The translations under genes were made by a program, and so were the position numbers. The notes beneath the pieces are model-generated. The model was not told the origin of the DNA. It was given only the letters and a program-made list of their open reading frames with translations, and searched no databases. Of a stretch of 64,000 bases of DNA, positions 8,772 through 58,653 are shown in pieces. The DNA comes from Pelosinus fermentans JBW45 (GTDB taxonomy: Bacteria > Bacillota > Negativicutes > DSM-13327). Where the stretch lies: NCBI RefSeq assembly GCF_000271665.2, contig NZ_CP010978.1, forward strand, positions 3,750,501-3,814,500. The letters run 5' to 3'. How positions within the stretch are numbered: the first letter of the stretch is position 1; each line of letters begins with the position of its first letter.

Positions 8772-9497
8772 CTACTTAAAACGAAAAGTGACTGGCATGT
8801 TTGTATAACACATAATACTGGCGCCGCTCTCTGGGTCCTTAGCCGGCACAAATCGCCATTTTTGAACCGCTGCTACCACTGCAGCATCTAATATATCATG
8901 TCCTGATGTCGCACTAATGGTTACATCGCCAGGTAATCCATTTGCCAAAATTTGAATTTTTACCACTACGGTACCTGTCAAGCCGGCTGTCCTCGCTCCT
9001 TCAGGATAATCAGGATCTACCTTAGATAAGATCTGCGGCCGAACAATCTTACCTTTTCGCCCGCCATTTCCCCCACTATTAGAGCCAACATTAGTGCCAC
9101 TGCCGCCGCTCCCACTATTCCCAACTCCATCACTGCCAGAAGAAAAATTTCCAGTCGACTCATTACTACTTGCTGACTGGGATGAAGCTACTGCTTCCAT
9201 CGCCAGCTCATTGGCCACAGTCACTACCTCAGAGGTAGCAGGCGAAGCGGCTTTACTCGCCCTTACTTGCACAGTCTGGACAGGAGCAGCACTAGGTGCA
9301 CTCTGGGAATTTGGCAATGGTTCATCTAATTCTGAATCGTCTATAGACGCATCTGTAAGTAATTCTAATTCAATGTAAGGTTCTGCTTCTATGGGTGTAA
9401 CAGCCTTACCAGCCAGCCAACCGATAACACCCCAAAATAATATATGAAAAATTATAGAAATGCCGATGGCCTTACGCCAACGTGGTCGGTATGTCAT
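8772..9497 (-). CDS. tonB: TonB energy-transducing protein
   Basis: A 241-residue TonB. One N-terminal membrane anchor (about residues 10-30), a long low-complexity periplasmic spacer rich in Ser, Gly and Asn (about 95-150), and a C-terminal TonB domain with YPEGARTAGLTGTVVVKIQI and the ALQKWRF-like AAVQKWRFVPAKD segment. It couples the inner-membrane ExbB-ExbD motor to outer-membrane receptors. It follows exbB and exbD, and the BtuB-like receptor lies in the same unit, implying a dedicated energising complex for corrinoid import. The spacer is Ser/Gly-rich, not Pro-rich as in enteric TonB. Confidence 0.92.
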   Translation of the reverse strand: MTYRPRWRKAIGISIIFHILFWGVIGWLAGKAVTPIEAEPYIELELLTDASIDDSELDEPLPNSQSAPSAAPVQTVQVRASKAASPATSEVVTVANELAMEAVASSQSASSNESTGNFSSGSDGVGNSGSGGSGTNVGSNSGGNGGRKGKIVRPQILSKVDPDYPEGARTAGLTGTVVVKIQILANGLPGDVTISATSGHDILDAAVVAAVQKWRFVPAKDPESGASIMCYTNMPVTFRFK

Positions 9498-9502
9498 GCG
9501 CT

Positions 9503-9913
9503 CTATCTTCCTTTCCGATCAGTAGCCACAGCCACCCTACGTGCCCCTGACATTTTGAGCTCATCCAATACTGCCACTACCTGACCATACTCTGCTTGTT
9601 TATCTGCTCGTACAACAAATATATTTTCTGAGTGTTTTGCCAGCTCAATACTAATTCGTTTTTGCAACAAGGAAAAAGGAATTTCCTCTTGATCAAACAT
9701 GATATTACCATTTTGTAAAATAGTAATATTAATATTCTCGGACAGTTCCTTCTGTACAGCTGCAGCTTGCGGCAAATTGATAGGAATGGTATGCTGCTCC
9801 ACCATATATAAGGTACTCATCATAAAAAAAATTAATAAAAAAAAGATAATATCAATCATGGGAATAATCATTAATTCTGGTTGTTTCTCAATGCGTAAGC
9901 TACGCAATTTCAT
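9503..9913 (-). CDS. exbD: ExbD/TolR-family motor subunit
   Basis: A 136-residue protein with a single N-terminal membrane helix (IPMIDIIFFLLIFFM, carrying the proton-translocating Asp) and a periplasmic C-terminal domain ending in VAVLDELKMSGARRVAVATD. It works with ExbB to energise TonB. Its start lies within the end of exbB (14-base overlap) and tonB starts six bases after its stop, so the three genes are tightly coupled. Confidence 0.92.
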   Translation of the reverse strand: MKLRSLRIEKQPELMIIPMIDIIFFLLIFFMMSTLYMVEQHTIPINLPQAAAVQKELSENINITILQNGNIMFDQEEIPFSLLQKRISIELAKHSENIFVVRADKQAEYGQVVAVLDELKMSGARRVAVATDRKGR

Positions 9914-10547
9914 GATTTTCCCTCCGAGTTTTTTTATTGCCCGCCAGTCGAGTCATGATGAGAGTATAGACTTGTTCCATATCCGTAACCAATTGATCTA
10001 AGCGATGAGTAAAATAGATGTGAACAACTAACGCCATAATCGCTACCATTAAACCAGTAGCGGTTGCCACTAAGGCTTCGCCAATTCCGCCAGTGATAGC
10101 CATAGGCTGACCATTTTTCACATTGAAAACGCTAAAGGAATTAATCATACCGATTACGGTTCCCAATAATCCTAACAAAGGGGATAAGGTAACAATGGAA
10201 CTTAGATAATTCAAGTATTCTCTCAATCTGGCTGCTGATAAAGCGGCTGTTCCTTCCATAATTACTTCCAGGTTACTCTCCTTTTGATAAGCCTCTAACC
10301 CTTCTGCCGCTAAGCGCCCAATTACCGCTGGCGTATGTTCACATAATTGCTGCGCCTCGGCAATTTTCTTTCTTTCCAATAAAGGCTGCAGCTTATTAAT
10401 AAACACCTGAGCATCTGTAGACATCTGGCGGAAATAAATAAACCGCTCCACTGCAATTGCCACTACAGCCAAAGAACACCCTGCAATCACATACATGACC
10501 GGGCCGCCCTTATAAAATAAACTGATGCATTGTAATAAAAAATCCAT
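9900..10547 (-). CDS. exbB: ExbB/TolQ/MotA-family proton channel
   Basis: A 215-residue inner-membrane protein with three hydrophobic segments (about 13-35, 110-130 and 155-180). The signature TLSPLLGLLGTVIGMINSF and the GIGEALVATATGLMVAI block are typical of ExbB. It forms the proton-driven motor with ExbD. It is encoded 29 bases after the btuD-like gene in the corrinoid-uptake unit. Confidence 0.92.
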   Translation of the reverse strand: MDFLLQCISLFYKGGPVMYVIAGCSLAVVAIAVERFIYFRQMSTDAQVFINKLQPLLERKKIAEAQQLCEHTPAVIGRLAAEGLEAYQKESNLEVIMEGTAALSAARLREYLNYLSSIVTLSPLLGLLGTVIGMINSFSVFNVKNGQPMAITGGIGEALVATATGLMVAIMALVVHIYFTHRLDQLVTDMEQVYTLIMTRLAGNKKTRRENHEIA

Positions 10548-10576: not shown

Positions 10577-11818
10577 TCAATTTTTCTCTAGTAATGTAAT
10601 AAATTGCGGTAATGTCATCACGGTAACTTGAGGCATCTCTACCAATTCTGCATATAATTCACTGGCTTGACCATTAAGGAAATCCCGTTTTTCAATCGGT
10701 GTATCCTCAATCACAATTAATTTTTTAGCCATAAAAGCGGCTTGTAAATTATCAATATTTTGTTCTCCAAAGGTTAAATCTGACAATACTACCCAATCGG
10801 CTGCGCTAATTTTCCTGCGATTCTCTTGTGCCGACAGTTCATCAATGCTTGAAAAAGGTTGCCCCAGCAGGCAAGGCAAATGAAAGGCTTCTGCTACATT
10901 GGCATCCGCATCACCTGGCTGTATTACACCAAGGGTCAGACGATACCCCCTTTCATAAAGCAAACGGATAAATTTCTCCCCTGATCCCCCACCGCAAATA
11001 ATATGAACATTCGTGTCTTTATTGGGATTATCATCAGCAGCAGCATAGGTGTGGATATCTAGATTACCAGTTACTTTATTCATAAATACAGCGGCATGCA
11101 AACCATAAGCAGCTTGTAAATTTTCTTTGGTAATCACCTTCTCAGGAGAGCCGTCCGCAATCATTTTGCTATCTGCCAATAGCAGCAGCCGAGAGCAAAA
11201 TTTAGCTGACAATTTTAAATCATGCGCTACTATCAATACCGTTTTACCTTGCTTTGAGATCAATTGACAATAACGAAATATTTCTTCTTGATAGACTAAA
11301 TCCAGGCTAGCCGTCGGCTCATCTAAAAAAATAAGCGGGGTTTCTTGTGCCAGAACTTTGGCCAATAAAACACGCTGTTTCTCACCGCCTGACATCAAAT
11401 GGACCGGTTTATCCGCTAATGCTTCCACTCCCGTAAACTCCATATATTGGCGGGCAATTGCTTTATCCTCAGCCTGCTCATGCTGCCACCATTTTAGATA
11501 TGGATAACGCCCAGTTAAAACCACTTCTAAGGCCGTATAGCCAAAGCCTACATTTACTTCCTGCTGCATATAGGCAACATGACGAGCCAGTTCCTTATCA
11601 GACAAGGTTGTAATGGGGCGGCCTGCTAACTGTACCTCACCCGAAGCTAAAGGCACAAAACCACGCAAAGCTAGGAGCAAGGTACTTTTGCCTGCTCCAT
11701 TAGGGCCAATAATCCCCACAAATTCTCCAGCACTTATGCTGCAGGTAATATTCTCTAAAATTTTCTTTTCACCAAGCACAATACTACTATTACGGGCGGT
11801 TATGATTTCCTGTGTCAT
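10577..11818 (-). CDS. btuD: BtuD-type ATPase with extra C-terminal domain
   Basis: A 413-residue protein. The first 260 residues are a FecE/BtuD ATPase (GPNGAGKST about 38-46, MSGGEKQRV about 143, LIFLDEPTASLD about 165). Residues 275-413 are an added alpha/beta domain starting HIICGGGSGEKFIRLLYERGY and containing GVIQPGDADANVAEAF; it looks Rossmann-like. BtuD-type ATPases with such an extension also occur in some archaea (general knowledge); the role of the extension is unknown to me. It overlaps btuC by four bases. With btuF and btuC it makes a second complete BtuCDF set, linked in the same unit to btuB and tonB-exbBD. Confidence 0.88.
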   Translation of the reverse strand: MTQEIITARNSSIVLGEKKILENITCSISAGEFVGIIGPNGAGKSTLLLALRGFVPLASGEVQLAGRPITTLSDKELARHVAYMQQEVNVGFGYTALEVVLTGRYPYLKWWQHEQAEDKAIARQYMEFTGVEALADKPVHLMSGGEKQRVLLAKVLAQETPLIFLDEPTASLDLVYQEEIFRYCQLISKQGKTVLIVAHDLKLSAKFCSRLLLLADSKMIADGSPEKVITKENLQAAYGLHAAVFMNKVTGNLDIHTYAAADDNPNKDTNVHIICGGGSGEKFIRLLYERGYRLTLGVIQPGDADANVAEAFHLPCLLGQPFSSIDELSAQENRRKISAADWVVLSDLTFGEQNIDNLQAAFMAKKLIVIEDTPIEKRDFLNGQASELYAELVEMPQVTVMTLPQFITLLEKN

Positions 11819-12885
11819 GAAGGTCCTCCAGACTGTTGCGTTTTACGCAGCAGATATAAGAAGTAAGGGGCTCCCAGTAACGCTGTCATAATACCTACAC
11901 GAATTTCATTAGGAGGAAAAATCATTCTTCCTAAGGTATCACAGAACACTAAGAACAAAGCTCCCGCTAAGGCACTGCTTGGCAGCAGCCAGCGATGCTC
12001 CGGCCCAACTATAATTCGCATAATATGAGGTACAATTAAACCGACAAAGCCAATGGTACCACTCACACATACTGCCATTGCCGTAGTAGCAGCAGCCACA
12101 AATAATAAAAGCAGGCGCAATGCAACTACAGGCACCCCTACTGATCGAGCTTCTTGTTCCCCTAGTACAAGAACATTCAAATGCCGTGCCAGCAAGCATA
12201 AAACAATCAGACCGATGAGAATTGGACCAACTGCCAGGTAAACATGTTCCCAGCGTCGATAATCTAAGCCCCCTACCACCCAAAATAAATATTCTCGTAC
12301 CCGATATTCATTCATCAGAGTCAAAATTCCAGATGTTAGAGCTCCCATTAACATACTGACGGCTACTCCTGATAACAATAAGGTCATCACGGGGATTTTG
12401 CCCCGTGACATAGTTAAAAAAACCGTTGCGCTCACTGCTGCAAGGGCTCCCACTAACGCAAACATCGGCATAATAAATATACTAAAAGACGTTAGACCAA
12501 GAGCAATGGCAGCAACAGCTCCAAAAGATGCTCCACTGGAAACGCCAATAATTCCCGGATCAGCTAGAGGGTTACCAAATACCCCCTGCATAACGGCTCC
12601 CGATACACCTAATGCAGCTCCCACTAACACCCCTACAAGTACCCGGGGCAAACGGATATTCCACACCACAGCCTGAAATTCGGCATTAACGGAGGGGAAA
12701 TATCCGCTAATCACGGGCACATGCTGTCCAATAATTGCTAGGGTATCTTCCCATGGCACCGTTATGGTTCCCCAAGATATAGAAAATACGATCATACCAA
12801 GTAATACGATACTAAGTACTATCATAATCTTCCAAGCCTTTTTAGCCCGATTCCCTTGTGTCTTCTTTAGCATTGTTTCTCTCAT
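11815..12885 (-). CDS. btuC: FecCD/BtuC-family permease
   Basis: A 356-residue polytopic permease with the family motifs NIRLPRVLVGVLVG, GAVMQGVFGNPLADPGIIGVSSGAS and GTIGFVGLIVPHIMRIIVGPEHR. It is the membrane channel of the second BtuCDF system. The start codon overlaps the btuF stop by four bases and its end overlaps btuD, which indicates translational coupling. The N-terminus has about 18 basic residues before the first membrane helix; a start at the second Met (residue 5) is also possible. Confidence 0.9.
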   Translation of the reverse strand: MRETMLKKTQGNRAKKAWKIMIVLSIVLLGMIVFSISWGTITVPWEDTLAIIGQHVPVISGYFPSVNAEFQAVVWNIRLPRVLVGVLVGAALGVSGAVMQGVFGNPLADPGIIGVSSGASFGAVAAIALGLTSFSIFIMPMFALVGALAAVSATVFLTMSRGKIPVMTLLLSGVAVSMLMGALTSGILTLMNEYRVREYLFWVVGGLDYRRWEHVYLAVGPILIGLIVLCLLARHLNVLVLGEQEARSVGVPVVALRLLLLFVAAATTAMAVCVSGTIGFVGLIVPHIMRIIVGPEHRWLLPSSALAGALFLVFCDTLGRMIFPPNEIRVGIMTALLGAPYFLYLLRKTQQSGGPS

Positions 12886-13832
12886 GGGTTATATTGAGGA
12901 TAAGCTGCCTTAGCAACGTCCGTTACTCCTTGTACAATATATTGTGATGAAGAGCTTAAATGACGATCGGGAATCGTGAATAGCTGCTCCTCTTTGATTG
13001 CTCTAAGACTTTGAAATGCGGGATCATCTCGTACTCCCGCTTTAAATTCCTCTACGTTGGTTTTATCATTATAATTCCATGTTGGCATAATAAAAACATC
13101 GGGACTGGCAGCTATAATTTGCTCTTTAGTCATCATTTCATTCTTACCAACGCCTACTTTACTTGCCCCATTCATGACACCTGCATATCGGCAGATATCA
13201 TCAAATAAGCTGCCTTGTCCTCCGATTCCTCCCATTAAGGAGAAAAGGACTACCGTTTTCCGCTCCTCAGAGCTGACTTTCTCCAATGATTTTTGGATCG
13301 TTCCTAATTGATTCTCCATTTGGGTTACCATTTGCTGTCCCATCTGTTCTTCTCCAACAACATGGGCAATTTCTCGAATCACATGTTTTACGTCTTCAAT
13401 GGTACTTGGTGTTTTATATACATAGACAGGAACTCCTGTGTCACGAATGGTTTGAATTAATTCTATAGGCTGCCAATCAGCAATAAATAATACGTCTGGC
13501 TGTAATGCGATAATTGCTTCCGGATTGGCCTTCACCTTTTTGGATACCAATTTAGCCTGTTCACTTACGTTGGATATTTCCGGGTCATCTGCCAAATAGG
13601 TCAAAGCTAAAATGCGTTCCAAAGGAACCAAGTCCACCAGTATCTCATCTGTCCCCAAGGACAAGGACACAATTCGGCTGGGTTTATGAGGAAGTTTTAT
13701 TACATGACCTTGGAAATCCTGTACTTCATAGCCTCCTGTTTTAGGTGCATCCTGCTGTTGGTTAGAGCTGCAGCCAACTACTAACAGAAGGCAGCAACTT
13801 AAGAGTAAAGCAATAAACGACAATTTTTTCAT
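12882..13832 (-). CDS. btuF: Corrinoid-type periplasmic binding lipoprotein
   Basis: A 316-residue class III binding protein with a lipoprotein signal (LLLSCCLLLVVGC, lipobox Cys at 21). Its two-lobe domain begins VQDFQGHVIKLPHKPSRIVSLSLG and contains EAIIALQPDVLFIADW. It would hand the ligand to the BtuC encoded next (four-base overlap). It starts only three bases after the stop of the TIM-barrel gene, so these genes share a message that also encodes the btuB-like receptor. Confidence 0.9.
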   Translation of the reverse strand: MKKLSFIALLLSCCLLLVVGCSSNQQQDAPKTGGYEVQDFQGHVIKLPHKPSRIVSLSLGTDEILVDLVPLERILALTYLADDPEISNVSEQAKLVSKKVKANPEAIIALQPDVLFIADWQPIELIQTIRDTGVPVYVYKTPSTIEDVKHVIREIAHVVGEEQMGQQMVTQMENQLGTIQKSLEKVSSEERKTVVLFSLMGGIGGQGSLFDDICRYAGVMNGASKVGVGKNEMMTKEQIIAASPDVFIMPTWNYNDKTNVEEFKAGVRDDPAFQSLRAIKEEQLFTIPDRHLSSSSQYIVQGVTDVAKAAYPQYNP

Positions 13833-13835
13833 CCA

Positions 13836-14801
13836 TTAACGCTCCTTATATTGCAAGGCTTTCTGCTGAATCCTGATTTTTTCAGACCAATCATTGATCG
13901 ATGTATACATAAACTCATGTACTACATATGTAGGTTGTACACAATTTATAATCTTCTTTACACATGGAGAACTAAAGGGTAAATGCTCGTCAATGCGCAG
14001 CACATGACTCATGGCAGCTGCCAAAATATCATCTTGGGGCATATCGGTACCTCTACTCTGTTTGATATAATTCCCGGACAAGGAATGGTGCAAGTGCACA
14101 CCATGAATATAATGCTTATATTCTTCGAGATTATCAATTGTTTTCAGGACATAATCTACACCATCATCCTGATTCTTTAGTTCCGGATTCGTATTCATCA
14201 AATGGCCGATATCCAGCATAATCCCTGCCTTGGGATGTTTTACACTATCAAGTAACAACGCTGTAAGTTCTTTATCCTTCAAAGTTAATCCTGGCCACCA
14301 CAAATTTTCAAATAATAATTCCATATCCTCTGGTATGCTCTGGGCCAGCTCATTAATCACTTCAATCGTGGCTTCAATGATTTGTCGGTCAGAGAAGCTA
14401 AATTGCCAATGAAATAATTCTGGAATTCGTGTCTGACTGACATGAAAGACGGCATACTTGGCACCTGCCATTTTAGCAATACGAAGATTCTCACGATAGA
14501 CGTTTAGCCAGCCTTCACGGGTCAAAGCGCCATAACAAGCTTCAATCTCTGCATCACTGCCAAATTGCCTGAGAAGCTCCGTTCTGTCTCCTCGCCAGAA
14601 ATCCAGCCAGTTCGGCCAAAAACGCAGATGCACCCCCTGTATCCACTGCTTCTTATGGACACGTGGGTTCCAAGAATCACAAAACATCATTTCCAAACCA
14701 TCTAAATGATGATGATTCAAAAAAGCTTCTAAGCATACAGGGTTATTATGAATGAGTTCCAGATCAGATGCATAATTGGATAAATTCACAAGTTGTAACA
14801 T
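13836..14801 (-). CDS. Xylose-isomerase-like TIM-barrel protein of unknown function
   Basis: A 321-residue protein of the AP-endonuclease-2/sugar-phosphate-isomerase-like barrel superfamily. Candidate metal ligands in the usual strand-end positions are His (KYAVFHVSQ, about 125), Glu (ELLFENLWW, about 167), Asp/His (GIMLDIGHLMN, about 197-200) and His (IHGVHLHHSL, about 238-242). Members bind divalent metals and act on sugar phosphates or inositols, but no specific activity can be assigned. It sits between btuB and btuF in a cobalamin-riboswitch unit, so a role in corrinoid handling is possible. ATG 14801 has AAAGGA eight bases upstream. Confidence 0.75.
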   Translation of the reverse strand: MLQLVNLSNYASDLELIHNNPVCLEAFLNHHHLDGLEMMFCDSWNPRVHKKQWIQGVHLRFWPNWLDFWRGDRTELLRQFGSDAEIEACYGALTREGWLNVYRENLRIAKMAGAKYAVFHVSQTRIPELFHWQFSFSDRQIIEATIEVINELAQSIPEDMELLFENLWWPGLTLKDKELTALLLDSVKHPKAGIMLDIGHLMNTNPELKNQDDGVDYVLKTIDNLEEYKHYIHGVHLHHSLSGNYIKQSRGTDMPQDDILAAAMSHVLRIDEHLPFSSPCVKKIINCVQPTYVVHEFMYTSINDWSEKIRIQQKALQYKER

Positions 14802-14990: not shown

Positions 14991-16910
14991 CTAAAATATC
15001 GTTTTTAAACCAATCATATAATTTCGTCCGCCACAAGGCTTGCCAGCAGCTGTATCATAATACTTATCAAGTATATTATTTACCGTTAAAAAGGCAGTAT
15101 TACTCTTATCTAATTTATAATTAAGATTTGCATCCCACAGCCAATAGCTTTTTTCAATAAATTCACTATTGGTTCGTCCCATAGCAGCCGTGCCTCTTAT
15201 ATCGGCATTTATTTTCTTAGAGCTATAAGACATACCAATGTTCCATGTTTCATCTGCTATATTTTTATCTCTTACAAAATCACTATCATATTGGGTCTTA
15301 TTCCTAACATGTAAATAATTATAGCCAATAGAGGTTTTTAATTTAGGGGTAAGCTGCTTAGTTAACTGTAGTTCAAAGCCATCAGCCTTCTGCTTATCAA
15401 CATTAGAAGGCGTCCAATACTCTATTGCAGGATTTGTACTAACGTTTTTCCAGGCAATTGCATCATTTAGCCTACGAGTAAAAGCTGAAAAATTTCCTTC
15501 TAGTGTATTATCAAACTTGTGATTCACACCAATCTCAGCACTCCATCCAGTTTCCGGTTTTAAAGCAGGATTCCCGTCATAATGGGTCTCTGGTGATCCT
15601 GGATAGTAAGAGTCTGCAGGATCAACTGATGACGGCCAGTATAAATCATCAAAGCGTGGTGTTTGAAAGACCTTGCCCCATGATGCATAATAAGTAGTAC
15701 GATCACTTTGTTTATAATTTGCTCCTAACTGTGGCGTTGTTTTATTTCCGTATGTATCGCTATTATCATAACGAAGTCCTGGAAGAATACTAAATTTATT
15801 TGTTATATTCCATCGATCCTGTAAATAAATCGCTTTTACAGTACTATCCTTACTCTTATAGTCACTACTTTCAATCTCGTCTTTTCGCCAGTCAATTCCT
15901 GCTGTCAACATATTTTGTTCATCAATCTTAGAGTTCAATTGATAATTAAATCCCTTGGTTCTGACATCATGATCATACCGCTCCCAAGTATTATCTCCTA
16001 ATCCAACACGATGGTTGGCATTTTGATAAAATTTAATTTGATAATCAGTTTTAGTAGAAAGATTTTCTGTATAAGTGAAATCCCAATTGTGCTGATTCGT
16101 ATTTTCATATTTATTAATTAATTTAGCTTCATTTTGATGATCAAAATTTTCATAAGTAAAGCTTAAATTACCTTTATTGATCTTTTGATCCAACCGCAGC
16201 GTATAAGCTTCTTGGTCAATACCTGTGTACCTATATGATTTATTATTTCCATCTGAATAATCACCCATTTGTCTTTTATCTGCAGTAAAAAACCAACTTA
16301 AATTACCTTCTTTACCCTCATTAATTAATGTATAATTCTCACCATTCCAATTCCCGCCTGCTATTTTTACCGTTGTTTGGTTCTTCTCTCCTTTTTTAGT
16401 AATAATATTGATTACACCGCCAACAGCATCGGCACCATATAAGGCTGATCGACCACCTTTTACTATTTCAATACGTTCAATATTTTCGATACCGATTAAA
16501 CCTGTTAAATTAGAAGTAGCCATACCAAACCCGCCTATACCATTCGGTAAGTTCATACGTCTACCATCAATCATAACAACCACTTGTTCACTTCCATTAA
16601 TAAACGCGGCACTAATACTACCAGGTGTACCGTTAGATCCTATCTGTACTCCCGGGATATGCTGTAGAACTTCTCCTACATTATGATAATTCCCTTTTTC
16701 AATCTGTTCTTTTGTGATTACCGTTACATTAGCTGCGACTTCAGATAATTTTGTAGGTACCCGATTAGCTGTTACCACCAGTTGATCAAAGGAATAACTT
16801 TCGGTTTCTTCATTCTCATTCGCATACGCTCCTGATACTGGCAGCGAGATAAAACCACTTACTATACAGGCATATATCATAGCCTTCTTAATTCCTATTT
16901 GTTTATCCAC
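14991..16910 (-). CDS. btuB: BtuB-like TonB-dependent corrinoid receptor
   Basis: A 639-residue outer-membrane receptor. A signal peptide ends near AYA (residue 30), followed by a TonB box FDQLVVTANR (41-50) that resembles the DTLVVTANR box of E. coli BtuB. The plug (about 55-170) contains VLQHIPGV, VVVMIDGRRMNLP and GRSALYGADAVGGVINIITKKG; the rest is an alternating beta-barrel ending in NYMIGLKTIF with a terminal aromatic residue. Together with TonB-ExbBD and BtuFCD in the same unit it gives a complete path from outside to cytoplasm. It starts 31 bases after the nitrogenase-like gene and has a GGAGGG site. Confidence 0.93.
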   Translation of the reverse strand: MDKQIGIKKAMIYACIVSGFISLPVSGAYANENEETESYSFDQLVVTANRVPTKLSEVAANVTVITKEQIEKGNYHNVGEVLQHIPGVQIGSNGTPGSISAAFINGSEQVVVMIDGRRMNLPNGIGGFGMATSNLTGLIGIENIERIEIVKGGRSALYGADAVGGVINIITKKGEKNQTTVKIAGGNWNGENYTLINEGKEGNLSWFFTADKRQMGDYSDGNNKSYRYTGIDQEAYTLRLDQKINKGNLSFTYENFDHQNEAKLINKYENTNQHNWDFTYTENLSTKTDYQIKFYQNANHRVGLGDNTWERYDHDVRTKGFNYQLNSKIDEQNMLTAGIDWRKDEIESSDYKSKDSTVKAIYLQDRWNITNKFSILPGLRYDNSDTYGNKTTPQLGANYKQSDRTTYYASWGKVFQTPRFDDLYWPSSVDPADSYYPGSPETHYDGNPALKPETGWSAEIGVNHKFDNTLEGNFSAFTRRLNDAIAWKNVSTNPAIEYWTPSNVDKQKADGFELQLTKQLTPKLKTSIGYNYLHVRNKTQYDSDFVRDKNIADETWNIGMSYSSKKINADIRGTAAMGRTNSEFIEKSYWLWDANLNYKLDKSNTAFLTVNNILDKYYDTAAGKPCGGRNYMIGLKTIF

Positions 16911-16941: not shown

Positions 16942-18264
16942 TTACGTTGCCACTACTTTTTTACACATTTTTATCTTTTTCTGTCCTTGTATATGCTGGT
17001 TCCATAAGCTCGCAACCATATGACTGGTTCCTTGCAAGCCCATAAATGGTCGATGTTTAAGGATCATTTCATCGTAAACAGGTGAGGAGATATGCTGATA
17101 TGCCACATCTTTCACTACTTTTTGATGCAGGATTGCTTTTTCTCTGCTGCTTGCCATCAGCAATCCGCCTCGTAAGCCTGCCAAGTGTTGTTCAATTTTC
17201 TGCTGATCCTTATATCCATCTAACACAATTCCAATATATTCAGGATAACTCTGCTTAAAGGGAACACCATTTTGTAATACAGTTATGATTTTCTTTGCAT
17301 TCAACCACTCCCCTCGTACTGCCTGGGATATAGCAAAGGCTACGGAGGCAGGGGCAGCAATGAAAATGCTGTCGAACCAGATAGTACCCCAAATCTTTTG
17401 CTGTTCTTTATTCATAATGCTATGTTTTTGTTCCAGGCAATCTGCTTCTTGTTGAAGAGCTTTTAGTCCATTACTTCCCCCTGACAGATAATAATTAATC
17501 GCTTTCAGCCAGTTCAAGGAACCTTGTATGCCATAAGGGGGTAATAAGGATACATAGGGCATATCATACTGCTCTTCTAATAGCTCTGCCAGCTCACGTC
17601 CTAGTTCATCATGAACTACAATATTCAGCTGCGCCTGAGTCATATTGCTAATTTCCTGCATCGAACTTCCTGCTCCTGGACAAGCGATTACTTCATAACC
17701 TGCTAAGGTTAGCATACGCCTCAGCTCTTGCAGATCATGGACTGCATTATAATAACCAACACTGCATCCTAAAAGGTTAACCGTCCTTGGCTTTATAGCA
17801 GTACGCAACTGCAGGGGCACCTCACGAAAATAGGCTTTGGCAGCTGCCTGATATCCTGCCCAAAATCCCTCTTCCAAAGCATGACGATCCAGACAAATCA
17901 CAGGACAATTCATATCTGCCTGCTTGGCAATATGCAAAAGATCCTCATTACGGGTACCGTCAGTGCAGCTGTTCGCTAGTAGCACTACAGATGGCTGAGC
18001 CGTCTGTTTTATGGATTGTAAAATATGCAGCAAATACTGTTCTGTACCAGAGAATACAGCATCTTTACTTCTTTGGGAGCAAAAGAAGCGCATTCTTGCT
18101 GTTGGACATTGTTTTTCAATATACTCATGAGCTGAAAAATAACACCATAAGGAACTGTTAAGCACCATTACAGCACCTGGAATACCTGCAAAAAAGGTTG
18201 ATGCACCTGTCAATCCACAACTATTGCCCTCTTTGCACATATAAGTTGAAAGATTCGTAACCAT
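16942..18264 (-). CDS. Nitrogenase component-1-like protein in corrinoid operon
   Basis: A 440-residue protein of the nitrogenase component-1 superfamily (NifD/NifE/BchN/CfbD). Three cysteines occur in the order and rough spacing of the NifD P-cluster ligands: C16 (NSCGLTGA), C41 (SLWCYF) and C100 (ANSCTDGT). The later block LLGCSVGYYNAVHDLQELRRML and GYEVIACPGAGSSMQEI matches the second Rossmann-like domain. No NifH-like reductase and no second component-1 subunit is in the window, so a homomeric, CfbD-like arrangement is possible. CfbD acts on a nickel tetrapyrrole in methanogens; here a corrinoid or other tetrapyrrole substrate is inference. ATG 18264 is preferred (GGGAGG eight bases upstream). 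It is the first gene after a cobalamin riboswitch and lies directly before btuB. Confidence 0.8.
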   Translation of the reverse strand: MVTNLSTYMCKEGNSCGLTGASTFFAGIPGAVMVLNSSLWCYFSAHEYIEKQCPTARMRFFCSQRSKDAVFSGTEQYLLHILQSIKQTAQPSVVLLANSCTDGTRNEDLLHIAKQADMNCPVICLDRHALEEGFWAGYQAAAKAYFREVPLQLRTAIKPRTVNLLGCSVGYYNAVHDLQELRRMLTLAGYEVIACPGAGSSMQEISNMTQAQLNIVVHDELGRELAELLEEQYDMPYVSLLPPYGIQGSLNWLKAINYYLSGGSNGLKALQQEADCLEQKHSIMNKEQQKIWGTIWFDSIFIAAPASVAFAISQAVRGEWLNAKKIITVLQNGVPFKQSYPEYIGIVLDGYKDQQKIEQHLAGLRGGLLMASSREKAILHQKVVKDVAYQHISSPVYDEMILKHRPFMGLQGTSHMVASLWNQHIQGQKKIKMCKKVVAT

Positions 18265-18344: not shown

Positions 18345-18427
18345 ACAATAGCATCAAGTAAATAGTAATCCCGACGTATATATACGTCGGGGAAAAATAA
18401 GCACAATAAAAAAACTATCGTACAAAT

Positions 18428-18626
18428 CCCCTCCCCATCTCTCGCAGGTTCTAACGGTGATTGCTATATAGGCAGTTCTCCTGACTTAGAATCATTGCTC
18501 CCCCATACCTTCCCAAGAACTTTGTCTCAGTGGCATATCATGGGTTCACTCCTCATTACAGTGGCGGGACCGTGCCGGAATGAAACCGGACTTCCCTATT
18601 AAGCCCCAAAGGGCACCTATACCATC
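18428..18626 (-). promoter_or_regulatory. Cobalamin riboswitch before nitrogenase-like/btuB operon
   Basis: It has all class hallmarks on the minus strand (TTAATAGGGAA, CGGTCCCGCCACTGTAA, GCCACTGAGA, GGGAAGG, AGGAGAACTGCC) with P1 strands near 18467-18472 and 18615-18620. The leader promoter is visible: TTGACA (18681-18686, minus strand) then a 17-base spacer and TAAAGT. It should control about ten genes from the nitrogenase-like gene through btuB, btuFCD, exbBD and tonB. Confidence 0.95.
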
Positions 18627-18710
18627 CATATGAAAATTTTTACATGTTATAAGATTCACTTTATAATATCTTTAAAGAATTGTCAAGCAATTCACTGTTA
18701 ACAACTTCTT

Positions 18711-19244
18711 TTAAAATTCTATCCCTTTTTGAGCCTTTATGCCCTTTTTATAAGGATGTTTAATCTCTTTCATTTCCGTTACTAAATCGGCTTTATCAAT
18801 AATCTCAGGGCGGACATCCCGCCCTGTCAGCACAAGATGCAAGGCAGAGGGCTTGTCCTCTAATAATTTTAATACTGCTTCTAGAGATAGAACGCCAAAC
18901 TTAATCGCATAGTTAATTTCATCTAAAATAATCATATCCCACTGGTTTGATCCAATTTCTTTTCGCGCCATCTCCAAGGCTTCTTCAGCTGCATGACGAT
19001 GATCAGCCATAGCATCTTCATTCGCATTGCGAACAAAACCTTCCCCCATCTGACGCATTACAAAATTAGGTCCCAAAGCCTCTGCCGTTTTTAATTCGCC
19101 ATACTTCCAGCTGCCTTTAATAAATTGTATGATCAGCACTTTGAATCCCTGTCCCCAAGCCCTTAGTCCAAGACCTAAAGCTGCTGTTGTTTTTCCTTTG
19201 CCATTTCCTGTGTTAACAAGAATTAAACCATGTCTGTTTTCCAT
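18711..19244 (-). CDS. cobO: Cob(I)alamin adenosyltransferase (CobA/CobO type)
   Basis: A 177-residue P-loop corrinoid adenosyltransferase. The P-loop GNGKGKTTAALGLGLRAWG is at residues 13-31, and MIILDEINYAIKFG and HLVLTGRDVRPEII are diagnostic. The enzyme attaches the 5'-deoxyadenosyl group to reduced corrinoid, trapping imported material as well as serving synthesis. It follows the cytosolic cbiK by 88 bases under the same riboswitch. It is close to the family's usual length. Confidence 0.93.
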   Translation of the reverse strand: MENRHGLILVNTGNGKGKTTAALGLGLRAWGQGFKVLIIQFIKGSWKYGELKTAEALGPNFVMRQMGEGFVRNANEDAMADHRHAAEEALEMARKEIGSNQWDMIILDEINYAIKFGVLSLEAVLKLLEDKPSALHLVLTGRDVRPEIIDKADLVTEMKEIKHPYKKGIKAQKGIEF

Positions 19245-19332: not shown

Positions 19333-20172
19333 TCAATGCCTGCACATACCATGTCCAGCTTTTTGACTCATAGCGTCCTTTAGATGCTGCACATACAGAT
19401 CTTGAATCTTCGTATTTTCGCCTAAGCCATGGAGATAGACATCCACTGCAAAACCCGCTTTTACTAGCTGGGATCTGGCAGAATCATCCTCATCACCTGC
19501 CATGTCATTATTAACGTGATCACCAGCAACCAGCATAAATGGCATCAATATTACTTTCTTGATATCCCGCTTTTTCAACTTTACAATCACACTTTCTAGC
19601 GGCGGGAAACCTTCTACTGTATAAACAAATATATGATTCAGTCCAGCTTCTTCGATTTTCATTTGCAATGCAGCATAGGCTGTATTGGCAGGATGTACGC
19701 CACCATGTCCCATAAACACAATGGCTTCTTGGCTTTCCACTTTAGGCAATTGTGCTGTCAAAGCCTCAATGGCTTCTACATAATCATCTGGTCTGTCTTC
19801 CTGCCCTGTATAATAAAGCAAAGGACGGCCGATTACAATCTTTTCAAATACTTTTTGCTGCCCATGAATGTATTGAACGACGATTTTCTTGATCTTATCA
19901 TATTCTTCGCCGCCAACCACATGCAATGGCTGAACATATACTTCTTTGTATCCTTCATCTTCCAGCCTTTGGATTGCTTCTGCTTCTGTATCAATGTGAA
20001 TACCATCTCTGGCTGCTAACCTTTTGATAACGATTCGAGATGTAAAGGCTCTTCGAACTTCATATTCGGGAAAATTCGCTTTGATCTTATTTTCCACGCT
20101 TTCAATATTGAGTCGTAACCCTTCCTGATAGGTTGTACCAAAACTCACAACTACAATAGCCTTTTTCATCAT
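19333..20172 (-). CDS. cbiK: Cytosolic sirohydrochlorin cobaltochelatase
   Basis: A 279-residue CbiK with no signal peptide: it starts directly with MMKKAIVVVSFGTTYQEG, the first strand of the fold. Candidate metal-site histidines are H156 (MGHGGVH) and H219 (LVAGDHVNNDMAGDE). It ends with a short His/Cys-containing tail (GHGMCRH) that could bind metal. It inserts cobalt into sirohydrochlorin. It is clearly related to the exported copy at 5552-6478, sharing NIESVE, RAFTS and GRPLL/GRPVL blocks. AAGGAG lies upstream of two adjacent ATGs. Confidence 0.93.
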   Translation of the reverse strand: MMKKAIVVVSFGTTYQEGLRLNIESVENKIKANFPEYEVRRAFTSRIVIKRLAARDGIHIDTEAEAIQRLEDEGYKEVYVQPLHVVGGEEYDKIKKIVVQYIHGQQKVFEKIVIGRPLLYYTGQEDRPDDYVEAIEALTAQLPKVESQEAIVFMGHGGVHPANTAYAALQMKIEEAGLNHIFVYTVEGFPPLESVIVKLKKRDIKKVILMPFMLVAGDHVNNDMAGDEDDSARSQLVKAGFAVDVYLHGLGENTKIQDLYVQHLKDAMSQKAGHGMCRH

Positions 20173-20329: not shown

Positions 20330-20528
20330 AATCCCCTCCCCATCACTCGCAGGTCAATTGGTGATTGTTATATAGGCAGTTCTCCTGACTTAGAATCATC
20401 GCTTCCTCAAACCTTCCCAAGATTTTATCTCAGTGGTAAACCTAGGGGAATGCTCCTCATTACAGTGGCGGGACCGCGTCGGCATGTAACCGAACTTCCC
20501 TATTAAGCCCTAACGGGCACCTATACCA
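20330..20528 (-). promoter_or_regulatory. Cobalamin riboswitch before cbiK-cobO
   Basis: The aptamer shows the minus-strand hallmarks TTAATAGGGAA, ACGCGGTCCCGCCACTGTAA, CCACTGAGATAA, GGGAAGG and AGGAGAACTGCC. P1 strands are TATAGG at 20371-20376 and its complement near 20519-20525. The shared 3' extension with CCTGCGAG and GGGGAGGGG is present. Expected to lower cbiK and cobO expression when corrinoid is plentiful. Confidence 0.95.
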
Positions 20529-20545
20529 TCCATATGTACTTTTTA

Positions 20546-51660: not shown

Positions 51661-53499
51661 GTCGAGTAAGCCAAGGGAATCTCACTCTTAGCTTCTCACG
51701 GAACCGGACTTGAAGGTCTCCCCTCATCCGGCTCTTATCATTCAACTCATTACAACATTCCTATTACGGTATTGCCAGTGTGCAAATAGATCAGGCTCTC
51801 TTTTCTTCACCTCAGCTAGCCACATTTCTGCTTTCTTTCTGTGTCCTCGAAACCTTTTGAATTTACACATTGCCCATTTGACCAATCGCCTATCTACACA
51901 GTCTAATGAATACTTGGTCGCCTGTGGATTGTATTTGCAAAAATAATTAATCCATCCTCTAATGATAGGATTTATCACTCCGGCAATCATATCCGTTTTG
52001 CATCCTGTTTTCTTATGTATCTCCAACGATTTTATCTTCTCTCGAAAAGCCTTATTTGAATTCTTGCTAGCTGATGCTATAAAGTTTACACCTGTACTGC
52101 CATTTTTGTATTTAATGAATACTCCTTTGAATGTGTACCCAAGAAAGTCAAATTCGCTCTTTGAGTAGTCCTTCTTTCTGTCTCCATCTTTACAGTACAC
52201 AATTCTGGTTTTGTTTGGATGCAATTCTAGTAAACAGGCTTGCATCCTTTCATTAAGCGATTTCAAAATCTGTATTGCCTTTTCTTCTGTCCTACAGTGT
52301 ACTACAGCATCATCTGCGTATCGCTCAAACGGTGCTTCCGGGTAGTTTTTCACCATCCATACATCGAATACGTAATGCATAAACATATTCGCCAGAATTG
52401 GACTAATCACCCCACCTTGAGGTGTCCCAGAGGTTCTCTCAATGGTCGTACCATCTTTTAGCTTGAATGGTGCTTTTAGCCATCTTTCCACATACAATCG
52501 TATCCACGGTTCTCTAACATGTCTTTTAACCACTCTCATTAACAGTTCATGGTCTATATTATCAAATAATCCCTTGATATCCAGCTCTAAAACAAAATCA
52601 TACTTCCAACATCTTTTTCTTGCCTGTCCTATCGCATCTATAGCAGATTTGTTAGGTCGATATCCATAGGAGTTTTCGTGAAACATTGGCTCTACCACTG
52701 GCTCTATATACATTTTGGCTACCATCTGTGCTATTCTGTCATGGATTGTGGGTATTCCTAATCTCCTTGTTCCTCCTGCTTTCTTCGGTATTTCTACCGC
52801 AAGCACGGGCGATGGAAAGTAACTACCCGAACTCATCCTATTCCAGATTTTGTACAGATTGTTTTTCAGATGCTTCTCAAACTCTTCAAAGTCCATACCA
52901 TCAATTCCAGCACTTCCTTTGTTAACTTTTACTCGCCTATAGGCTTCTTTGACTACTTTTTTAGGAATATTATATGGTTTGCTCTCTTGCATCAAATCCT
53001 CCTGTTTCCAGTTGTTATCAACTTCAAGCTGAATGATGACACCCCTTTGCTCCATTCCCATTACAGTAACTTCATCGCTACTACGAGTGTCTCCGCCCCT
53101 ATACCACACATCTCTATTTTCAGCCTCACCTTTCTGTGGCTTGCGCTTTTTCGATTTACATTATGGTATAGGTTCCCACGTTTCACAATGGTGCCTGTTA
53201 TATGCTCATGCCACCTTCATACCGTCTGTCAAATAGCCAGCTTTCCAGGTTGCCGCTATTCTTGTCCCCACCCAGTTCTGAAAGGTAGGTTTTGACAGCA
53301 CTCACGCTATCGATACTTCTTCAGCGGTTCACTTTCGTTCATCTTCATATAACTCACATGACTGTTTTGACAGCCTTTTCCCTAGTTGCTCACTACCATG
53401 GCTTTTGACCACAGCAGCATAGGGTTGTTTGGTGGATCTACCTGTATAGTCCCCACCGAAGGACCTTCCTTCATCACCTTTGTGCCTTTCGTGGCACAC
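51661..53499 (-). mobile_element. Group II intron A, inserted after domain V of intron B
   Basis: 5' end GTGTGCCACG (53499), domain V at 51701-51734, 3' end CTTACTCGAC (51661). It encodes an intact RT/maturase. The flanks are GGTTCCG upstream and TGAGGGGG downstream, which together restore the domain V-VI linker of intron B. Confidence 0.85.
51742..52992 (-). CDS. ltrA: Group II intron A reverse transcriptase/maturase
   Basis: A 416-residue intron-encoded protein. RT motifs include GIDGMDFEEFEKHLKNNLYK, GTPQGGVISPILANMFMHY and RYADDAVVHC; the maturase X domain is at about 300-410 (GVINPIIRGWINYFCKYNP). There is no HNH endonuclease domain. ATG 52992 is chosen because AGGAGG lies five bases upstream; a longer frame to 53109 runs over intron RNA. 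It supports splicing and mobility of intron A. Intact and close to the introns C and D proteins. Confidence 0.92.
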   Translation of the reverse strand: MQESKPYNIPKKVVKEAYRRVKVNKGSAGIDGMDFEEFEKHLKNNLYKIWNRMSSGSYFPSPVLAVEIPKKAGGTRRLGIPTIHDRIAQMVAKMYIEPVVEPMFHENSYGYRPNKSAIDAIGQARKRCWKYDFVLELDIKGLFDNIDHELLMRVVKRHVREPWIRLYVERWLKAPFKLKDGTTIERTSGTPQGGVISPILANMFMHYVFDVWMVKNYPEAPFERYADDAVVHCRTEEKAIQILKSLNERMQACLLELHPNKTRIVYCKDGDRKKDYSKSEFDFLGYTFKGVFIKYKNGSTGVNFIASASKNSNKAFREKIKSLEIHKKTGCKTDMIAGVINPIIRGWINYFCKYNPQATKYSLDCVDRRLVKWAMCKFKRFRGHRKKAEMWLAEVKKREPDLFAHWQYRNRNVVMS

Positions 53500-53558
53500 C
53501 GGAACCGGACGAGCCCTATTAAGGCATCCGGCTCTTCATAGCAGCATTTGCCTAACAA

Positions 53559-54108
53559 TTAGCCATATATATTCACATAAATTCTTGCCCTAGCAAGTGG
53601 GAATCGTTCCTCGAGCTTTGCAAACTCTTCCCAAATTAGGCTCTTCTTCTGGCTTCTGCGATTGAGCACTTCAAACAACTTGCGCCGTATGCGGTATCCA
53701 AACGCACCAATTCCGCTGCTGTTGTCGGTCACCCCATAGTAGCGGAAGTGCCCAACCAGCTTGGAATTTATCTGTTTGATTAAGTCTCCTATCTCAGTAT
53801 GCATATTATAATGGAGCCATTCAGCGAAGACTTTTAGTTTTACTTTAAATTTCTTTCTGCTGGTTTTCCTTTTGACGCGGAATTTACCTATCTTGCTTTT
53901 GCTACAGTAGTGCGTGAATCCTAGAAAGTCAAATGTCTCCGGTTTTCCTTCCCCTCGTTTGTTCCGTCTTTCCTCGGCGAAGCGTCCAAATTCGATCTTC
54001 TTCGTTTTCTCCTCTGCGATCTCTAGGTTGAACTTCCCCAATCGATCTTTCAACTTCCCATAGAAAGCTTCAGCATCATCTTGGTGTTGAAAGAAGCAAA
54101 CAAAGCAA
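53559..54108 (-). pseudogene. ltrA: 3' part of intron B RT/maturase
   Basis: This piece continues the RT gene that breaks off at 55973. The joined sequence reads YADD then FVCFFQHQDDAEAFYGKLKD in the normal RT order. It contains the thumb and X domain (GHFRYYGVTDNSSGIGAFGY). The exact 3' splice point of intron C is uncertain by about four bases. Because the upstream part carries a frameshift, the protein is probably not made. Confidence 0.8.
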
Positions 54109-55972
54109 GTAGACCTAGGGAACTTCCCCCTAAGTCTCTCTCAGAACTGTACGTGAACCTCTCAGCTCATACAGCTCCCATTATCCAGCCGTTGGCAGTA
54201 TCCCAAATTTCCAGTGTGCAAACAGTTTTCTATCACGCTTTGCTATTTCTCCAAGCCAATGTTCAGCTCTTTGTCTTGATTTTCGATTCTTGTATTTCTT
54301 GCGAACCCAGTAAACAAGACGTCCATTAATATATCTTAATACTTCATATATCTCTGATTTATAAAAATGCGTGTAGTAATTAATCCATCCCTGTATTTGG
54401 CTATTGAACATATTTGCTATGTCCAATAAGTCCTTATCCGGTTTCAACTGCAACTTCCACTTTCTAACTACTTTTCTTATGGATTTCTTCGCCTTTTCTC
54501 CCATTGCTGGCAGAAAGTTAGTGAAGAACTTTCCACATTTATTCTTTGCATGTCTTGGTCTGAATGTATATCCCAGAAAATCAAAAGAGGTGTATTCATG
54601 ATTTCCTATTCGGTCATCATCTTTACAATATACAATTCTTGTCTTATCCAAATTTAATTCTAATCCAAAACACTCAAATCGTTCCTGTAGTCTGCGTTGC
54701 AAATATTTCGCTTGTTTAAGAGACACACAGTGTGCAATTCCATCATCCGCATATCTTGCCCACGGTATTGCTGGAAACTCTTTCGTCATATAATCATCAA
54801 ATACATAGTGTAAAAATAGATTGGCAAGTACAGGACTGATTACCCCACCTTGTGGCGTTCCTGAAGTTCTTAGAACAATCGTTCCATCCTCCATTTGAAA
54901 CGGTGCTGTCAACCACCTTTGTACATACAGAAGAATCCATTCTTCTTTTGTTTGGTGTTTTACCATTTCTATTAAGTAATCATGTCTGATGTTATCAAAT
55001 AGACCCTTTATATCAAACTCTAAAACCCAGTCTTTTCTCCAACACCTTCTCCTTGTTACTTCTATTGCCTGTATTGCTGATTTATTCGGCCTGTATCCAT
55101 AGGAATCTTCGTAAAATATCGGTTCCACGCATGGCTCAAAGTATAACTTCGCTACCATCTGCGCTATCCTGTCCTCTACGGTTGGTATTCCTAAAATACG
55201 AGTTCCACCATTCTTCTTTGGAATTGCTACTGCCTTTACAGGTTTCGGGAAATAACTTCCTGACGACATTCTATTCCAAATCTTATAGAGATTATTATTT
55301 AGCTTTCTCTCAAAATCCTCAATAGATTGCTCATCCACTCCATAGGTTCCCTTATTTGCTTTCACTCTTTCATAAGCAGTAATTACTGCTCTTTTGGAAA
55401 TACTGTATGGCTTTGTTTCTTGCATAAGTTCCTCCTCCTTTCAAAGTTGACTTATTCTTGAAACTGAATAATTCGGGTTCTTCGCTCCATTCCCATTACA
55501 GAAACTTCATCACTACTACAACCCAATCTGCCCCCATGACTGCATTGGTACTCTTATCTTGCGGTTCTTCCGCTTGATATACTCCCTTAACATCAGCCCG
55601 TGGGTTCCCACGTTCCGTACAGACGCCTGTATTAAGTTCATGCCACCTTTATGCCGCCCACCGTCTAGGCAGTAAACAGGTTTCCCCTAGACTTATCCCA
55701 GATTAACGACTACCCCCTGGTTTTGATGGAATCTCTACGCTATCGACATTTTCGTAAGTGGTTCATTTGTTCATTCATCTCCTTAATACGCACTTGACAG
55801 TTTTATCACTGCCTTTTCCTTAACGCTCAATACCATGGATTTTGGCCACAGCACCTTAAGGTAGTTTGAAACCTCCACCTGTATGGCGATTTCGGTGGAC
55901 CTACCACCATCATCTGTACAGCATGGCTGCCTTCAAGTAGCTACGCTACTTGGACACTCCTTCGTGGCGCAC
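54109..55972 (-). mobile_element. Group II intron C, inserted in the YADD codons of intron B RT
   Basis: 5' end GTGCGCCACGAAGG at 55972, domain V at 54144-54177, 3' end near GGTCTAC at 54109. It lies directly after TATGCTGACGACT, that is within the codon after the catalytic Tyr-Ala-Asp-Asp of intron B RT. It carries its own intact RT gene. Confidence 0.85.
54181..55425 (-). CDS. ltrA: Group II intron C reverse transcriptase/maturase
   Basis: A 414-residue intron-encoded protein of the same lineage as the intron A protein: MQETKPYSISKRAVITAYER at the start, GTPQGGVISPVLANLFLHY, WARYADDGIAHC, and X domain QIQGWINYYTHFYKSEIYEVL. No endonuclease domain. AGGAGGAGG precedes the ATG. Intact. Confidence 0.92.
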   Translation of the reverse strand: MQETKPYSISKRAVITAYERVKANKGTYGVDEQSIEDFERKLNNNLYKIWNRMSSGSYFPKPVKAVAIPKKNGGTRILGIPTVEDRIAQMVAKLYFEPCVEPIFYEDSYGYRPNKSAIQAIEVTRRRCWRKDWVLEFDIKGLFDNIRHDYLIEMVKHQTKEEWILLYVQRWLTAPFQMEDGTIVLRTSGTPQGGVISPVLANLFLHYVFDDYMTKEFPAIPWARYADDGIAHCVSLKQAKYLQRRLQERFECFGLELNLDKTRIVYCKDDDRIGNHEYTSFDFLGYTFRPRHAKNKCGKFFTNFLPAMGEKAKKSIRKVVRKWKLQLKPDKDLLDIANMFNSQIQGWINYYTHFYKSEIYEVLRYINGRLVYWVRKKYKNRKSRQRAEHWLGEIAKRDRKLFAHWKFGILPTAG

Positions 55973-56775
55973 AGTCGTCAGCATACCGTATTAGGTATGC
56001 TTTGCCTCTGCATTCCCGCTTTATCTTCACAGTAAACCACAAGTCCAGTACATAATGCAGGTATACATTCGCCAGTGTCGGTGAGATGACTCCCCCCTGC
56101 GGCGTTCCTGTGTCTGTCTCGTGTTCTACGCCCTCCTCTATGACACCAGCTTTTAAGAAGCGCTGTATCAGTCGCAGTAGATTCGGGTCTTGGATGCGAT
56201 CTTTCAGGAACTTCATCATCCACCCATGGTCGACGTTGTCAAAGAAGCCTTTGATATCTGCATCCACCACATAGCTGACCTTCTTGGTTTCAAGAATTTT
56301 AGCAACTTCCTTTAGCGCGTCGTGGCAACTTCTCCCTGGCCTGAAACCATAGGAGCAGTCGAGAAATTCCGGTTCGTAGATGACAATCAGGATTTCATTA
56401 AGGGCTTTCTGCACCAGTTTGTCCTCATAGGCGGGTATTCCTAGCGGTCGTTTTTTTACCATCAACTTTTGGGATGTAGACTCTCTTTGCGGGTTGCGGC
56501 TTATACGCTTGCCGCTTCATTCTTTCCAGGAGATCAGTAATGTTTTCTTGTAGCTTTTCGCCGTATTCTTCTTTGGTTACAGCGTCAACGCCGACTGCTT
56601 TGTTTGCCGACAAGACACTATGAGCTGCTTTCAGGCTTTCCTCATCAATTGCATGGATAAGGGTTTGCAGTTTGACTCTTGGTCTTTGTTTGGCTAGTTC
56701 GGCTATCCTTGTTAGTTTTGTTTCCAATGTTTCTCTCTGCCTCCAGTGCAGCATTGTTTCCCTTTTCAAGGGCAC
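55973..56775 (-). pseudogene. ltrA: 5' part of intron B RT, frameshifted
   Basis: The N-terminal part (ETMLHWRQRETLETKLTRIA onward) reads into a seven-base homopolymer (56451-56457); with one base fewer the frame would continue VDGKKRPLGIPAYEDKLVQ as in related RTs. The second frame then runs through ADIKGFFDNVDH and GTPQGGVISPTLANVYLHY to RYADD, where intron C begins. Different lineage from the A/C/D proteins. Confidence 0.85.
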
Positions 56776-57228
56776 TGTTATGTTACGCCCTTCCTTCTGC
56801 GGGCATTACCCCACTTCATCAGTACTATGGCGTAATCCGACTCCCTGCCGTCTATTTGACTTCCTCGTCTTCAACTTGTCCGCCATACTCGTTTGGAGGG
56901 CGGCAGGGTCTCCCAAGTTCACACGGAGTAACGATGTGTAGCATGCCAAGACCTACGATCCCGGGGCGCCAGACTTAACTCGCCTTATCGCTAAGCCTAG
57001 TATTGTCTTCTGCTCGTCCCATGCATCGACCATTCCCAAGAGGAATTTCGGGATTCTACATCTTCAGCTTGCGCTTTCGGCCTACTACCTCTCCTACCTA
57101 CGCTTAGACCTGGCGTTACCGCTTCAGTCCCAAGGCTGGATACTGGGTGAATGGCTACTCCTTCCCAGGCGGGATTCTCACCCGCTATACTCCGTGCGCT
57201 TCTTGGCGCACGGGACGGTTCTATCGAG

Positions 57229-57525
57229 TTACACTTTGGAAATTACAGTTTGACTCACACCTGTCACTCTTGCTATTTGCCGCGTTGACACACCGTCTAC
57301 TTCTTTCACTCTTCTTATTATCGCTTCTCGTTTTATTCTTTCCATATTTTGCAATTCAGTAGCCAACTTAACATTTGCATACTTTTGTATCATTTTCTTG
57401 ATGTCTTCATCTGTTATTCTTTTTGCTTCCTTAATTTCAATACAATTATCATCAGCTTGTTCATTCATATACTTTTTAAAACTGGTGATAGATTTTTCAC
57501 GCTCTTCAGCAAAAACGGGGGTCCG
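57229..57525 (-). pseudogene. C-terminal fragment of a second RAYT transposase
   Basis: About 98 codons reading FAEEREKSITSFKKYMNEQA and ending TRQIARVTGVSQTVISKV. This is the C-terminal tail with helix-turn-helix of a REP-associated transposase, cut off upstream by the end of another RAYT element (57526-57539). After its stop a REP-like ACTCGATAGAACCGTCCC leads straight into intron B. Confidence 0.75.
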
Positions 57526-57563
57526 GGGGTCAGGCTTGATTTATTTAAACAATTGACTTATTT

Positions 57564-58433: not shown

Positions 58434-58653
58434 CTGCCAATCTTACTTGATCACAGCTTAGCAAACTATTAAGTATAAGTCAATTCCCTTATAACTCAAG
58501 CCTGACCCCATTTACTCTCTATTGCATCTTCATAGTGTACTCTTGGTTTTCTTGCCAACCATCTCACCTGCCAATCTTACTTGATCACAGCTTAGCAAAC
58601 TATTAAGTATAAGTCAATTCCCTTATAACTCAAGCCTGACCCCATTTACTCTC
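58386..58653. repeat. 134-bp tandem duplication at RAYT start
   Basis: The sequence 58386-58519 is repeated directly as 58520-58653. Each unit contains the first 15 or so codons of the RAYT gene, its upstream region and the REP-like end TCAAGCCTGACCCC. Confidence 0.9.

Follow-up and report, generated by a model that had tools for sequence, protein, structure and literature searches.

The substrates known for relatives of nitrogenase are N2, precursors of chlorophyll and of F430, and organosulfur compounds. Group IV, as published, comprises Cfb, Mar, Isr and Nfa (PMC11423573). In the full-text papers that were searched, there was no description of the clade analysed here and no nitrogenase-like link to corrinoid uptake, btuB, CobN or Sporomusa. 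The gene under study lies on the reverse strand of a 64,000-nucleotide stretch of the Pelosinus fermentans JBW45 genome (the window). It is a member of a nitrogenase-related branch for which no description was found, probably acting on B12-type molecules, in which an iron protein (H) and two component-1 subunits (D and K) are encoded as a triad; the window gene is a K that stands alone.

The closest solved fold to the window protein is BchB/ChlB of DPOR, a two-subunit tetrapyrrole reductase with an ATP-driven iron protein. The AlphaFold2 model (pLDDT 85) showed the Rossmann-type, three-domain fold of component 1, and the PDB fold search based on this predicted structure gave top matches that were all component-1 proteins, BchB being the first (TM 0.80). 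BchB was also the best NCBIfam model, at 96.1 bits against an equivalog cut-off of 490.35. However, the identity to BchB is 15-17%, the paired K proteins carry three cluster cysteines, and the linkage is to corrinoid rather than chlorophyll genes; with no bch genes linked and a separate branch in the tree, the window protein falls outside DPOR BchB.

The closest solved relative of D is MarHDK, the methylthio-alkane reductase of Group IV Nfl (144 bits, top fold match), which has the same 3+3 cysteines. MarDK holds an [Fe8S9C] cluster, whereas the aligned cofactor cysteine is missing from D, and the context of the new clade is corrinoid uptake, not sulfur scavenging. CfbC/CfbD, also nitrogenase-like, has a corrin-related tetrapyrrole as its substrate. 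Compared with CfbC (cut-off 402), the triad H reaches 372 bits, but K and D do not exceed 13-46 bits with CfbD (cut-off 268), and the triad has two different component-1 subunits where Cfb has one. NifE and NifD share the fold, and the paired K finds its best sequence match in NifE (115 bits), but the clade is separate from them and the FeMo-cofactor ligands are absent from D. The CobNST/ChlHID class I chelatases and the HmuS de-chelatase (PMC7689651, PMC12583661) resemble neighbours of the triad and are not homologues of the window protein.

The window gene and its operon

The open reading frame is intact, with 440 aa counted from the ATG and a GGGAGG ribosome-binding site upstream. The PF00148 (Oxidored_nitro) match spans residues 16-422, nearly the whole profile, with a Pfam cut-off of 28.6 bits, while the CfbD equivalog gave 12.8 bits (cut-off 268.4). 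The cysteines C16, C41 and C100 are invariant across the family alignment. The reading frame is uninterrupted in seven genomes, and the dN/dS of 0.09-0.20 indicates purifying selection comparable to that on the neighbouring BtuF gene. The following features, all on the reverse strand, surround the gene.

8772..9497, reverse strand: TonB (PF03544)
9503..9913, reverse strand: ExbD (PF02472)
9900..10547, reverse strand: ExbB (PF01618)
10577..11818, reverse strand: BtuD-like ATPase with a C-terminal extension ("corrinoid ABC transporter ATPase" NF007082, 300 bits, under the cut-off)
11815..12885, reverse strand: BtuC-like permease (PF01032, 333 bits; best model BtuC, under its cut-off)
12882..13832, reverse strand: BtuF-like substrate-binding protein (PF01497)
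13836..14801, reverse strand: TIM-barrel protein, conserved in corrinoid operons (PF01261, 40.8 bits)
14991..16910, reverse strand: TonB-dependent receptor, BtuB-like (TIGR01779, 219.6 bits, under the cut-off of 599.7; PF00593/PF07715)
16942..18264, reverse strand: K-type nitrogenase component-1 protein, solo, 440 aa (PF00148, 141.7 bits; K clade; predicted BchB-like fold)
18370..18391, reverse strand: terminator-like hairpin in the riboswitch-gene interval, possible expression platform (chance level 1.4 per region)
18454..18635, reverse strand: cobalamin riboswitch 5' of the solo gene (RF00174, 111.7 bits; gathering score 31.5)
18711..19244, reverse strand: BtuR/CobA cob(I)alamin adenosyltransferase, upstream neighbour (PF02572; TIGR00708, 207.5 bits, above the cut-off)
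19333..20172, reverse strand: CbiK-type cobaltochelatase (PF06180, 327 bits)
20358..20539, reverse strand: cobalamin riboswitch 5' of the cbiK-btuR unit

The end of the solo gene is separated from the receptor gene by 31 bp. Because the receptor scores under the cut-off of its best model, TIGR01779, BtuB can be no more than a tentative name for it; models of heme and siderophore receptors match this protein as well. Given its chance level, the hairpin is weak on its own. The TIM-barrel protein, for which no NCBIfam match was found, recurs beside corrinoid uptake genes in many lineages, with K or btu genes as its neighbours at L049, L053, L058, L059, L069 and L070. The island contains five cobalamin riboswitches, together with CbiK, BtuR and ABC transporter genes. 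Elsewhere in the window, several group II introns are clustered at 51661-59434 on the reverse strand.

The initial annotation had described a component-1 homologue with C16, C41 and C100 at the head of a riboswitch-led operon encoding BtuB, BtuFCD and TonB-ExbBD. The PF00148 match and the alignment bear out the first part, and the operon is confirmed with the receptor's name as a best guess only.

The K clade and the H-D-K triad

The phylogenetic analysis of 85 proteins showed that K and D form two clades, each with an SH-aLRT of 100, separate from the Nif, Vnf and Bch proteins, from Mar-like Nfl and from those Nfl proteins of the window strain that are linked to iron transport. Mar was represented in this tree by Mar-like Nfl proteins, supplemented by PDB profile matches outside it, and CfbD was compared by profile score instead of by tree. 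The window clade is nested inside the K clade with the paired K of Sporomusaceae. None of the NCBIfam equivalogs came near its cut-off for D or K.

The orthologue of the window gene is the third gene (K) of an H-D-K triad in Sporomusa ovata, Anaerospora, Pelotomaculum, Phascolarctobacterium, Succiniclasticum, Dialister, Selenomonas and further Negativicutes. The triad H (PF00142, 364 bits) retains the P-loop GKGGIGKS, C94 and C128, and the triad D matches PF00148 with 181 bits. A D gene, or in one case a D remnant (L063), is present at 42/42 named K loci. At 21 of these 42 loci a CobN gene is present within 10 kb; ChlI/ChlD-like genes occur at 17, CbiZ at 14, and BtuF/C/D-like genes at 29 when some generic ABC matches are counted. 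Genes for BtuB and BtuR are also frequent neighbours of the triad. The neighbouring CobN passes TIGR02257 (896.7 bits, cut-off 822) and is adjoined by ChlI- and ChlD-like genes. Moreover, CobN was found in 12/13 D-positive genomes versus 8/47 D-negative ones (Fisher p 1e-6, relatedness ignored). HmuS is a CobN relative that takes iron out of heme (PMC12583661), and by this precedent the CobN-type neighbour may either insert or remove metal.

In the corrinoid clusters, CobN is often followed by genes for a radical SAM protein and a carbon-nitrogen hydrolase. The radical SAM protein that follows CobN at L068 18978-20811, L073 8107-9957 and L076 16993-18030 is distantly like the CbpB "cobopep" maturase.

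A cobalamin riboswitch lies directly 5' of the triad in Sporomusa ovata, Anaerospora, Phascolarctobacterium faecium, genomes G046, G041, G039, G044, G051 and G057, and others. It was not found in the fetched DNA around several Phascolarctobacterium, Dialister and Succiniclasticum triads; at some riboswitch-less triads its place is taken by a divergent MerR gene. These results were obtained with a profile trained on Rfam hits and with Rfam itself, which replaced a regular-expression scan that had missed 25/41 known sites. The btu/riboswitch linkage is thereby conserved well beyond Pelosinus. The two findings that could have spoken against the initial annotation, placement in a characterised non-corrinoid clade and an unconserved btuB/riboswitch linkage, were both looked for, and neither was seen.

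Cysteines at the P-cluster positions number three in 24/24 D and three in 24/24 paired K, and the same 3+3 ligand pattern is described for MarDK (PMC12552129). The FeMo-cofactor cysteine (NifD C275 position), which Mar-like proteins, NifD and NifE carry, is absent in 24/24 D, where Gly, Ser or a different residue stands in its place. D also has no cofactor histidine. By the logic of DPOR and Mar set out in PMC12552129, these features together would fit a cluster from which electrons pass to an organic molecule bound by the enzyme. Since D is without the cofactor cysteine, the active site is predicted to resemble that of the tetrapyrrole-binding DPOR.

The search of viral contigs found no relatives, and that of plasmids found distant nitrogenase components only. 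The triad on an Acholeplasmataceae MAG contig (L104) is near-identical to that of an Acidaminococcaceae MAG (L074), and this contig is therefore probably misbinned.

The solo state and the residues lost

PF00148 matches number eleven in the genome of the window strain: those of nifDKEN, those of three further pairs, and the window gene. The profile of the partner D (A2) gave at best 109 bits in this genome, not above the Nif background, while true members exceed 250; that of the partner H (A4) gave at best 384 bits, from NifH and other NifH-like proteins only, with true members above 528. Besides nifH, at least three other NifH-like proteins are encoded, so that only the cognate H and D are missing. 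The cognate genes are likewise missing from the Pelosinus genomes G002, G005 and G006, where the best D-profile matches (148-151 bits) are other nitrogenase-like genes. The description of the protein as a solo component 1 thus holds for this genome, in which no matching D or H gene occurs, but not for the orthologues elsewhere, which belong to complete triads. The suggestion that its reductase is encoded elsewhere does not hold in the strict sense, as the profile search found no H of the clade in this genome; other NifH-like proteins could in principle serve.

Two other H-D-K clusters of the same genome, L039 7200-10460 (~305 kb) and L040 7166-10531 (~3896 kb), adjoin FecCD-type ABC transporters; no cobalamin riboswitch was found at either, and a similar set is located on a Sporomusa termitida plasmid (L110). 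Several Pelosinus genomes have long arrays of Mar-like D/K pairs, accompanied by genes for ABC transporters, cysteine synthase and radical SAM proteins (L112-L114, at G002:C1:2091001-2139000; G001:C78 51-94 kb; G005:C7 63-112 kb; G006:C1 2961-3018 kb), which the genome of the window strain lacks.

In Pelosinus propionicus (G001) and in G007, a D+K pair with CbiZ but without an H of its own lies beside the window orthologue, and in G004 this pair has collapsed to a short fused D-K remnant. This arrangement identifies the window gene as a second, diverged K, an offshoot within Pelosinus.

Residue losses were counted at the positions that at least 90% of 24 paired K share: in the window clade they amount to 13/27 up to residue 133 versus 3/43 beyond it (p 1e-4), and the C-terminal two-thirds of the window protein is intact. 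The LIGDD motif after the third cysteine and G128/G129 are conserved in 23-24/24 paired K and degraded throughout the window clade, LIGDD being lost in 7/7 genomes, while C16, C41 and C100 are kept in 7/7. A second solo K is situated within a btu operon, in the BtuD-ExbB interval, at L058 9194-10507 (G017) and L059 10004-11263 (G034). It likewise lacks LIGDD and G128/G129, lost 19/27 N-part versus 4/43 C-part positions (p 1.6e-7), and keeps C41 alone. The tree test does not reject an origin shared by the two solo lineages (p-AU 0.17), so that separate origins are not demonstrated.

Shorter frames of the K type were also noted. A 229-aa truncated K that keeps C41 alone lies beside CobN and TonB/ExbD genes at L030 1276-1965 (G035) and L031 1420-2109 (G018), and 274-aa open frames occur at G044:C2 (~344.5 kb) and G051:C16 (~79.6 kb).

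Possible roles of the solo K

We favour, with evenly divided confidence, the reading that the window gene arose by duplication and specialisation of the K of an undescribed H-D-K system of corrinoid uptake and processing, and now handles imported corrinoid. The window protein is most likely a corrinoid-handling pseudo-subunit and not a complete reductase. In the relatives, H, the ATP-driven iron protein, would pass electrons through the 3+3-cysteine Fe-S cluster between D and K to a corrin-type tetrapyrrole bound in the triad enzyme. The triad would then be an ATP-driven reductase of the corrinoid cobalt or ring, working beside the CobN-ChlID chelatase, CbiZ and BtuR under cobalamin scarcity. 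K would carry much of the substrate site, which could be used without electron transfer. The Pelosinus copy, under its own cobalamin riboswitch, has lost its partners and the cluster-side motifs and retained the presumed substrate half. It would most likely bind imported corrinoid after BtuB-BtuFCD uptake and then hand it on or stabilise it, possibly still with an Fe-S cluster, and would be controlled by the very molecule it serves.

Some observations run counter to this reading. The three cysteines retained in every genome of the window clade are more than a pure binding protein needs, the conserved C-terminal residues could reflect the fold rather than the substrate, some triads have no riboswitch in the fetched DNA, and most Succiniclasticum triads lie away from btu genes. 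CbiD, moreover, is nearly universal in the class, and the hosts are therefore not simply B12 auxotrophs dependent on salvage.

The retained cysteines would also suit a solo K that still takes part in reducing the corrinoid cobalt or ring, with a different D as its partner and with NifH or some other iron protein of the genome. The genome does hold NifH, other NifH-like proteins and other component-1 pairs, and the D+K pairs without an H of their own in G001 and G007 make a borrowed iron protein plausible there. Nevertheless, this is rather unlikely given the degradation of LIGDD and G128/G129 in the entire window clade and the missing cognate D in G000 (the window strain), G002, G005 and G006. 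The initial annotation had proposed an undescribed enzyme that reduces or remodels an imported corrinoid or related tetrapyrrole: a component-1 clade not described before and linked to the uptake of corrinoids is indeed present, but the loss of motifs of the paired K makes the window protein itself doubtful as a reductase.

A different substrate, such as heme or a metallophore, with an indirect link to B12, would agree with the receptor, which scores under the B12 cut-off and matches heme and siderophore models, and with the iron removal from heme by HmuS, a CobN-family protein (PMC12583661). We consider it improbable, as cobalamin riboswitches accompany the genes in many lineages and CbiZ and BtuR are corrinoid-specific. 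There is also small likelihood that the protein acts on its own as a homodimer, either as an Fe-S enzyme or in electron transfer, as in the case of CfbD, a one-subunit component-1 enzyme (PMC12552129, PMC11423573). Three cysteines under purifying selection and this precedent speak for it; the very low CfbD score, the absence of the clade H and the paired ancestry of the family, which argues for loss and not for a CfbD-type design, speak against it. A decaying relic, suggested by the lost D and H and the adjoining fused remnant in G004, is very improbable because of the purifying selection on a frame intact in seven genomes.

Returning to the corrinoid reading, H-D-K may, more tentatively, constitute a new functional class: an ATP-driven P-cluster-type corrinoid reductase coupled to a cobaltochelatase, from which K was freed once or more as a stand-alone corrinoid handler, the window gene included. 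If true, corrinoids would join the substrates of nitrogenase relatives, and a 3+3-cysteine cluster with an organic-substrate pocket would stand between DPOR and nitrogenase. The clade occurs in anaerobes of the gut and of sediments (Phascolarctobacterium, Dialister, Sporomusa, Pelosinus), where it is tied to B12 uptake and cobaltochelatase, and corrinoid salvage by gut anaerobes would become directly testable. A simple salvage by B12 auxotrophs was considered and rejected: CbiD was found in 52/60 relatives.
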